A stretch of 38,351 nucleotides of DNA from contig NZ_JACUTS010000017.1 of the NCBI RefSeq assembly GCF_014859695.1, positions 1 to 38,351 of the forward strand. The letters are read 5' to 3'. The position numbers and the translations under genes were made by a program. Shown piece after piece: positions 21,646 to 29,964 of this stretch (within the stretch, counting starts at the first letter, position 1; each line of letters opens with the position of its first letter). This DNA is from Sulfurimonas sp. (GTDB taxonomy: Bacteria > Campylobacterota > Campylobacteria > Campylobacterales > Sulfurimonadaceae). The notes beneath the pieces were generated by a model. It was not told the DNA's origin. It saw only the letters and a program-made list of their open reading frames with translations, and did no database searches.

Positions 21646-22281
21646 ATGTCAAAAAAGATCTACCTCTTCGCAACTTCTAAAAGCGAACATGCTATCAATG
21701 TTAAATCTTTAGATGTCAGGTATTTAAAACCTGATATCGATTTTTCCAAGTACGACTATCTCATTATCACATCCAAGCAGACCGTAAAAGCACTCGAGAA
21801 GTATGATAAAAAAGATTTTATAGATATTCCTGCACTTTGTGTTTCTATAAAAACTGCAGTTGCTTATAAAGAGTTCGGCGGTACTGTTTTGGCAGTCGGC
21901 GACGGATACGGAGATAATCTTGCTAAAAATATAAAAGAGTTCCCTAAAGAGACAAAATGGCTCTATTTAAGAGCTGAGCTCATAGCCTCCGATTTCGTCA
22001 AAAGAAGTAAGGATGAGGGGCATAAAATAGATGATGAAATTCTTTATGTCAGTGAGTGTTCCAAAGAGATTTTGCAGACAAGAGTAGATGATGATTCTAC
22101 TCTGATTTTTACATCTCCCTCGTCGGTAGAGTGCTTTTTGAAAAATAACTCTATCCACCCTGATGCCAAAATTATAGTCATAGGCAGTACAACCGCAAGA
22201 AGTTTGCCGGAGGGCATAAGATATATAATTAGCGAAAAAACATCAATAGAGAGCTGCATCGAGTTGGCATTGAGTCTTTAA
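21646..22281 (+). CDS. hemD: Uroporphyrinogen-III synthase
   Basis: HemD closes hydroxymethylbilane to uroporphyrinogen III in tetrapyrrole synthesis. The 211-residue product shows the diverged two-lobe pattern of the family: 'YDYLIITSKQTVKALEKY', 'ALCVSIKTAVAYKEFGGTVLAVGDGYGDNLAKNI', 'LYLRAELIASDF', 'LIFTSPSSVECFLKNN' and 'IIVIGSTTARSL'. Length is usual for Campylobacterota. It starts 9 bases after the guaA stop. HemD is poorly conserved in sequence, so the call rests on these TSxQ/S- and GxxTA-type motifs together. Confidence 0.88.
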   Translation: MSKKIYLFATSKSEHAINVKSLDVRYLKPDIDFSKYDYLIITSKQTVKALEKYDKKDFIDIPALCVSIKTAVAYKEFGGTVLAVGDGYGDNLAKNIKEFPKETKWLYLRAELIASDFVKRSKDEGHKIDDEILYVSECSKEILQTRVDDDSTLIFTSPSSVECFLKNNSIHPDAKIIVIGSTTARSLPEGIRYIISEKTSIESCIELALSL

Positions 22282-22305
22282 AAGAAAATTCAAGAATTTT
22301 TTTTG

Positions 22306-22311
22306 TATAAT
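22306..22311 (+). promoter_or_regulatory. -10 box of the 6S-like RNA
   Basis: TATAAT follows an eight-T run ending at 22304 and lies 5-6 bases before the 5' arm of the RNA's closing helix at 22317. This spacing puts the transcription start at the predicted RNA 5' end. Confidence 0.7.
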
Positions 22312-22316
22312 CATAT

Positions 22317-22519
22317 AAGTAGTCTGGATAGTTCGAGAAACCGCACTAATGAGGGTTCTACATTTTCAAGTAGCGAATACGTAGGATTTTTGTGTGTCGG
22401 TGTTGTCGTTTGAGATACGTTAACTCTGTCGAGACAATGTCGCCGTTATAAAATACTCTCTTCGCCCAAATTCGGCTTTTAGAACCAAGCCAAATGCGAG
22501 ACGGCTGTCTGGGCTACTT
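22317..22519 (+). ncRNA. ssrS: 6S RNA (RNA polymerase-binding regulatory RNA)
   Basis: 6S RNA mimics an open promoter and binds sigma-70 RNA polymerase. The call is from structure. The 5' end (22317-22331) pairs over 15 positions, with GU wobbles, with 22505-22519. Inside, ggttcta pairs with tagaacc (ending near 22485). A small hairpin, ctac/gtag, lies on the 5' side and another, gcc/ggc, on the 3' side of an internal bubble. The apical part folds through cggtg/cgccg, ttgtc/gacaa and gag/ctc. A long rod with a central bubble and about 200 bases fits 6S RNA. It has its own promoter and a terminator, and lies upstream of purD, where I recall relatives also carry it. An alternative would be a purD leader element, but I see no known purine-sensing motif. 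Confidence 0.75.
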
Positions 22520-22522
22520 ATA

Positions 22523-22567
22523 AAATATCCACTTAGGGTGTTACGGCAAGTTAAGTAGATATTTTTT
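22523..22567 (+). terminator. Intrinsic terminator after the 6S-like RNA
   Basis: aaatatc-c-actta (22523-22535) pairs with taagt-a-gatattt (22552-22564) with one internal mismatch, and the six-T run 22562-22567 follows. It ends 20 bases before the purD start codon, so purD expression needs read-through or a promoter within this stretch. Confidence 0.75.
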
Positions 22568-22587
22568 AACTTATTTATGGAGTGTTG

Positions 22588-23853
22588 ATGAAAATTTTAA
22601 TTTTGGGCAGCGGTGGCAGAGAGTACTCTATTGCCAGAGCAATTTTAAACGAAAAAGAGTTTCATGAACTTTTTTTTATACCCGGAAATGGTGCAACAAG
22701 CTCTTTGGGAACAAACCTAAATATTAAAGATTATAACGATTTAGCTGCTTATGCAAAAGAGAGCAGTATTGATTTGACTATTGTCGGTCCTGAAGCTCCG
22801 CTTGTGGATGGAGTAGTTGATATTTTCAAATCACTCGGACTTACTATTTTTGGACCAAGCAAAGAGGCGGCTCAGCTTGAGGGCTCAAAAGTCTACATGA
22901 AGAACTTTTTGGCAAAGTACAACATCCCTACGGCGCGCTACATTGAGACGGCTTCAATTGAGGATGCTTTTAAATTTTCAGATACTCTAACTGCTCCCAT
23001 CGTTGTAAAAGCAGATGGACTCTGCGGTGGCAAAGGCGTTATTATCGCGCAAAATCATGATGAGGCAAAAGTTGCGATATCTGAGATGCTAAGCGGAAAA
23101 AGCTTTGGCAATGCAGGACTCAAAGTAATTGTCGAGGAGTTTTTAGACGGCTATGAGCTCTCCATGTTTGCGGTTTGTGACGGAGATGACTATATTTTGC
23201 TTCCGGCAGCTCAAGACCACAAAAGACTTAAAGACGGTGATGAGGGACCAAATACAGGGGGAATGGGCGCTTATGCTCCTACTCCTTTGGTTGATGAAGC
23301 GCTTTATGAAAAGGTAAGGCAGAGAATAATCCGTCCTACTCTTGATGGAATGAAAAAAGAGGGAGCACCTTTTGAGGGCGTTCTTTTTATCGGTATTATG
23401 GTTGTAAACGGCGAGCCTATTACTTTGGAGTTCAATGTCCGTTTTGGAGACCCTGAGTGTGAAATTCTTATGCCGCTTATGACTTCAAGCTTAAGCGATA
23501 TGTTTTATAAAGCTGCTACAAATAGACTCAGTGAAATAAAAGTAGAGTTTTCAAACCAATATGCAGTAGGCGTGGTTATGGCAAGCGCAAACTATCCCTA
23601 CTCAAGTTCAACACCGGCTGAAATTATAGTAGATGATGTGCATCATGAAGAGATTGAGAAGTATACGCATATCTCTTATGCCGGTGTAAGCATGATTGAT
23701 GGCATACTGTATGCAGACGGTGGAAGAGTCTTGGTTTGTGTCGGTATCGGAGAGAGTATAAAGCAGGCAAGAGATAGAGCATACATGAGATGCGGACAGG
23801 TTCATTTTGCAGGTAAAAAACTCAGAACAGACATAGCCTATCAAGCTCTTTAA
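22588..23853 (+). CDS. purD: Phosphoribosylamine-glycine ligase
   Basis: PurD (GAR synthetase) joins glycine to phosphoribosylamine with ATP, step two of purine synthesis. The 421-residue product begins [15 protein letters not shown] and has the ATP-grasp motifs '[16 protein letters not shown]', '[17 protein letters not shown]', '[24 protein letters not shown]' and '[18 protein letters not shown]'. I chose ATG 22588 over the in-frame GTG at 22582: the ATG begins the conserved [12 protein letters not shown] and has TGGAG upstream. It is not overlapped by hemD; the 6S-like RNA lies between them. Confidence 0.97.
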
Positions 23854-29880: not shown

Positions 29881-29964
29881 GCGACTATGGTGGAACGGTA
29901 GACACGCAGGCTTGAGGGGCTTGTGCCGAAAGGTGTGAGAGTTCAAATCTCTCTAGTCGCACCA
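29881..29964 (+). tRNA. tRNA-Leu(GAG)
   Basis: The acceptor stem gcgacta/tagtcgc is perfect and is followed by A and an encoded CCA (29962-29964). The anticodon stem caggc/gcttg holds the loop ttgaggg, giving anticodon GAG for CUC/CUU leucine codons. A long variable arm (tgcc-gaaa-ggtg) marks a class II tRNA, and the T-arm is agag-gttcaaatctct like. The D-arm has ggtggaacggtagacac. All match a bacterial leucine tRNA. It is a single tRNA with no other nearby. Confidence 0.97.

Follow-up and report, generated by a model that had tools for sequence, protein, structure and literature searches.

The intergenic gap between hemD and purD in the window, a 38,351-nt stretch of a Sulfurimonas sp. genome, very probably (roughly 95%) encodes the Campylobacterota 6S RNA, with its own σ70-type promoter and a rod-like fold that would bind RNA polymerase and be released via pRNA. 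The RNA is real, well conserved and already known from this locus in the phylum, having been described in two relatives. An original prediction of a 6S-like RNA between the two genes is thus borne out by a match to an Rfam model (RF01069), by covariation and by the relatives' published transcripts. We base the 6S-type call on the conserved full-length structure, a positioned −10 element, weak matches to the 6S family model (RF00013), loci that keep the RNA without purD, and those transcripts.

The RNA gene, its parts and the two flanking genes lie on the forward strand. The upstream gene, hemD (uroporphyrinogen-III synthase, 21646–22281), is recognized by Pfam PF02602 (HEM4, 84.4 bits), its NCBIfam equivalog matches all falling below their cut-offs; downstream, purD (phosphoribosylamine–glycine ligase, 22588–23853) matches NCBIfam TIGR00877 at 471.7 bits (cut-off 288). 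From the hemD end at 22281 to the purD ATG at 22588 there are 306 bases, which accommodate an RNA of ~203 nt (22317–22519), its 5′ end placed from the −10 element and its 3′ end from the closing stem. Our own covariance model, R1, matches 22321–22516 at 138 bits, the window being among the sequences from which R1 was built. Elsewhere in the window, a tRNA gene carries an insert in its variable region (29881–29961; Rfam tRNA, 50 bits).

The RNA has the 6S architecture: a rod of ~200 nt that is held by a closing stem, opens into a central bubble and ends in an apical stem. Folding of 22317–22525 yields −60.6 kcal/mol, compared with −49.4 ± 3.8 for shuffles, of which one in 200 does as well. From alignment A1, which holds 42 of 70 loci and represents 11 of the phylum's 13 observed family groups, RNAalifold gave a consensus structure (minus three isolated pairs) with three elements: the closing stem, the interior helix and the apical stem. 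A1 omits family f2 except L090, family f7, L044, L063 and L070, so the covariation figures exclude the most divergent members. Across the 42 sequences, 94.2% of cells are paired and compensatory changes occur at 25 of the 36 consensus pairs, whereas slid versions of the structure pair at most 48.7% of cells and not one of 500 shuffles attains the real value on any of five measures. Deriving the structure from A1 itself favours it over its slid versions, and the argument is carried by the compensatory changes. A chance fold is ruled out by the shuffle energies and by covariation relative to the controls.

In the closing stem, 22322–22335 pairs with 22502–22514 (13 consensus pairs, eight of them showing compensatory changes; 96.7% of cells paired). 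The predicted long closing helix is therefore real, and the window's own fold lengthens it by pairing 22317–22321 with 22515–22519. The interior helix joins GGUUC (22354–22358) to GAACC (22482–22486), with compensatory changes in three of its five pairs and, again, 96.7% of cells paired. The apical stem-loop (22387–22452) comprises three consensus helices with 87–93% of cells paired and compensatory changes in 14 of 18 pairs. Covariation thereby upholds the central bubble and strong apical stem that had been proposed; the single-sequence minimum-energy fold of the window pairs the interior differently from the consensus. A second alignment, A2, and model R1 are based on 31 of the 42 sequences, including three f5 loci and the window. 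A possible local hairpin, GGCUU…AAGCC (22474–22491), stands 3′ of the apical stem within the bubble, with GAACC in its loop in the window. Its signal is weak: 83.9% of cells are paired (31 sequences) against 62.9% for the best slid control, with eight compensatory cells against up to 11 in slid versions. The hairpin folds in all 42 sequences, but also in 541 of 840 shuffles.

Within the gap, one Rfam family alone scores above its cut-off: RF01069, the purD RNA motif (22381–22514; 81.2 bits, gathering cut-off 41, E 3.8e-14), which Rfam types as Cis-reg. The match is direct and at about twice the cut-off. The model spans approximately the 3′ two thirds of the RNA and leaves the whole 5′ strand of the closing stem outside; its label does not fit the RNA. 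Listings of snoR23 and MIR6288 in this region are far below their cut-offs and are taken as chance.

The original prediction proposed a search with the 6S family model as its check and named a missing match as counter-evidence. Taken literally, that is the outcome in the window: RF00013 gives no match in 22200–22700 at E up to 10, and none genome-wide at E up to 0.001. We set this miss aside because the match here is to RF01069, and because RF00013 reaches the locus only weakly and in few relatives. Its gathering cut-off (46.4 bits) is attained in none of 298 genomes of the phylum, and sub-threshold matches (E up to 0.001) occur in six. In the three of these six that we checked (G207, G196 and G210), RF00013 aligns end to end (1–187) over the RF01069 locus. 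These alignments place CGGC in the 3′ closing-stem strand of all three relatives and of Escherichia coli ssrS; ssrS and two of the three share GUUCG in the 5′ closing-stem strand, the third having GUGCG, and CCUAA on the apical side of the relatives stands where E. coli has CCUUAA. In the reverse direction, an R1 search of the E. coli ssrS sequence (L197) did not find 6S at E up to 1. Outside Campylobacter, the C. jejuni 6S RNA shows no sequence-level conservation according to the part of the report available (PMC3656092), so the 6S homology rests on structure and covariance models. The window RNA shares its overall architecture with RF00013 and E. coli ssrS while itself lacking an RF00013 match, and the comparisons reveal a distant homology to 6S.

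A −10 element, TATAAT, lies at 22306–22311. To judge its position we used 70 of 101 loci, as for the terminator and purD-distance counts below, excluding L003–L031 (all genus g14), L099 and L100, the last two belonging to the same genomes as L003 and L004. In 65 of the 70 loci a TA[TAC][AG]AT hexamer starts 66–82 nt before the RF01069 match, as against 594 of 7,000 shuffles (8.5%); a looser count, of a −10 hexamer 0–25 nt upstream of the closing-stem motif, likewise gives 65 of 70. No −35 was recognized for the RNA gene, and a promoter scan that also requires a −35 reports no site at this position. All seven loci without an adjacent purD keep the −10 in the expected place. The promoter that had been proposed therefore stands, albeit with a −10 element and no recognized −35, and the pattern points to a housekeeping (σ70-type) promoter belonging to the RNA itself.

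Distribution is close to universal in the phylum. With RF01069, 282 of 298 genomes have a match at E ≤ 0.001, and in 271 it exceeds the cut-off; the G212 locus (L054) rests on a sub-threshold match of 32.1 bits as its only basis. For the 16 genomes missed, R1 recovers the RNA in 14 at E < 1e-5, these E-values being rough and four f5 genomes among the 14 not independent, since R1 holds three f5 sequences. G174 reaches E 0.057 only, and G283 has no match by R1 or RF01069. By one model or the other, the RNA is present in 296 of 298 genomes. An RNA-derived pattern occurs in 81 further stretches, 80 of which we examined; purD begins 189–407 nt past the pattern start in 71 of the 80, and five of the nine stretches without that spacing hold fewer than 230 bases downstream. 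The metagenome-assembled genome of Sulfurimonas sp. UBA2011 carries two full-length copies on two contigs (L119, DDCH01000010.1; L121, DDCH01000007.1) that are identical at 189 of 196 bases, reflecting either a duplicated 6S gene or a bin that mixes two strains.

Published work on two relatives describes this RNA directly. In the available part of one report (PMC3847290), the C. jejuni 6S RNA is a 185-nt transcript with a 6S fold, directly upstream of purD, and yields a 13-nt antisense pRNA; an H. pylori homologue lies in the same region upstream of purD, and pRNA is reported there too. A table in the accessible portion of another (PMC8322730) gives RNA polymerase as the target of H. pylori 6S RNA. 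As far as these sources go, both RNAs share with the window the locus before purD, a σ70-type promoter, the closing stem, the bubble and the apical part, and the length is similar (~203 nt in the window, from its inferred ends, versus 185 nt in C. jejuni). The window differs in having hemD upstream and a weak terminator-like hairpin after the RNA; the upstream gene also differs between C. jejuni and H. pylori. The suggestion of growth-phase regulation finds no echo in what is available of the C. jejuni report, where 6S was not significantly regulated from one exponential phase to another, nor in response to acid (PMC3847290). The same text notes that a shorter version of the region had earlier been proposed as a purine riboswitch, which we infer to be the Rfam purD motif. 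We found no paper on the purD motif, nor on a purD RNA together with 6S RNA.

By analogy with these systems, the window RNA would be transcribed from its own σ70-type promoter, starting at about 22317. The rod of closing stem, central bubble and apical stem would imitate an open promoter, and so bind and occupy the housekeeping RNA polymerase holoenzyme; the polymerase would then copy a short pRNA from the bubble, releasing the RNA. The available portion of one account (PMC8876501) sets out this cycle of binding and release: a hairpin in the 3′ half of the bubble aids release in E. coli-type 6S, and in Bacillus subtilis 6S-1 a second such hairpin hinders it. The epsilon RNAs may carry a 3′ bubble hairpin, its strand shared with the interior helix in many lineages, and we suggest that a refolding switch could operate.

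An intrinsic terminator had been predicted after the RNA, 20 bases short of purD. The spacing is exactly as claimed, 20 bases separating the T run from the purD ATG, and an AU-rich hairpin with a U run is present (22522–22567), the hairpin proper (22522–22565, −10.9 kcal/mol) overlapping a run of six T (22562–22567). This is the weakest part of the RNA gene: 22520–22587 folds at −12.0 kcal/mol with 24 of 200 shuffles as good, and our terminator scan does not list the hairpin. Comparable hairpins occur in L063 and L066 (the window's genus) and L067 (same family). Across the phylum, terminator-like hairpins are found in 13 of 70 loci, some of them far downstream, versus 32 of 350 shuffles; with so weak an excess we reject a phylum-wide intrinsic terminator.

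This scarcity bears on whether the 6S RNA also forms the 5′ part of the purD transcript, with purD expressed at least partly by read-through or processing. Such a dual role would add to the 6S reading rather than exclude it. In 63 of the 70 loci purD begins 16–167 nt past the RF01069 match, and in 30 of these the distance is 16–50 nt, which leaves little room for a terminator and a promoter; the short spacing and uncommon terminators favour a shared transcript. Against it, the window places a hairpin with six U in between, a TAAAAT at 22521 (one match to a loose pattern) could serve as a −10 for purD, and in G186 an opposing open frame separates the two. On balance we consider the dual role possible, at somewhat worse than even odds. 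A stronger form, in which the 6S promoter is the main purD promoter in much of the phylum and the linkage was lost or insulated in a few lineages, strikes us as rather unlikely. E. coli K-12 (L197) and the window each have a folate- or purine-metabolism gene next after 6S (fau and purD, respectively), a parallel that may be chance or shared logic.

That the RNA is nothing but a cis-regulatory, riboswitch-like leader of purD, as the Rfam type implies and the original prediction allowed for, is very improbable. The same close spacing (63 of 70 loci, 50 nt or less in 30) and the Cis-reg label speak for it, but seven of the 70 loci lack purD in the downstream flank examined and yet keep the RNA with its −10, so the RNA must be more than a leader of that gene. 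The opposing frame of G186 (L071, G186:C3:238345-240677), a genome of the window's genus, is a reverse-strand open frame of 550 codons, purD starting 1,830 bases downstream; by eye, the arrangement at L182 may be similar. G222 has the RNA, and searching it for PurD at E ≤ 0.001 gives no match. Behind the RNA of G261 stands an apparent RDD gene (judged by eye), the gene that follows purD in the window; the best PurD match lies elsewhere on the contig (40% identity). RNA and purD are apart in seven f5 genomes, and adjacent in two f6 genomes (G007 and G117). RF01069 does not include the 5′ closing-stem strand, which covaries, and in the available C. jejuni report the transcript is a separate RNA that starts upstream of the predicted riboswitch (PMC3847290). 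On the purD-free loci, closing-stem covariation and separate transcript, we reject a purD riboswitch alone.

Protein-only annotation would overlook the gene, and the Cis-reg label of Rfam is misleading; on this evidence RF01069 ought to be renamed as 6S RNA and its model lengthened to take in the full RNA. If the 6S promoter does serve as the main purD promoter in much of the phylum, a single transcript would give rise both to an RNA that sequesters polymerase and to the mRNA for an enzyme early in the purine pathway. The 6S cycle would then be coupled to nucleotide supply, by which pRNA synthesis and the release of 6S are driven as well.
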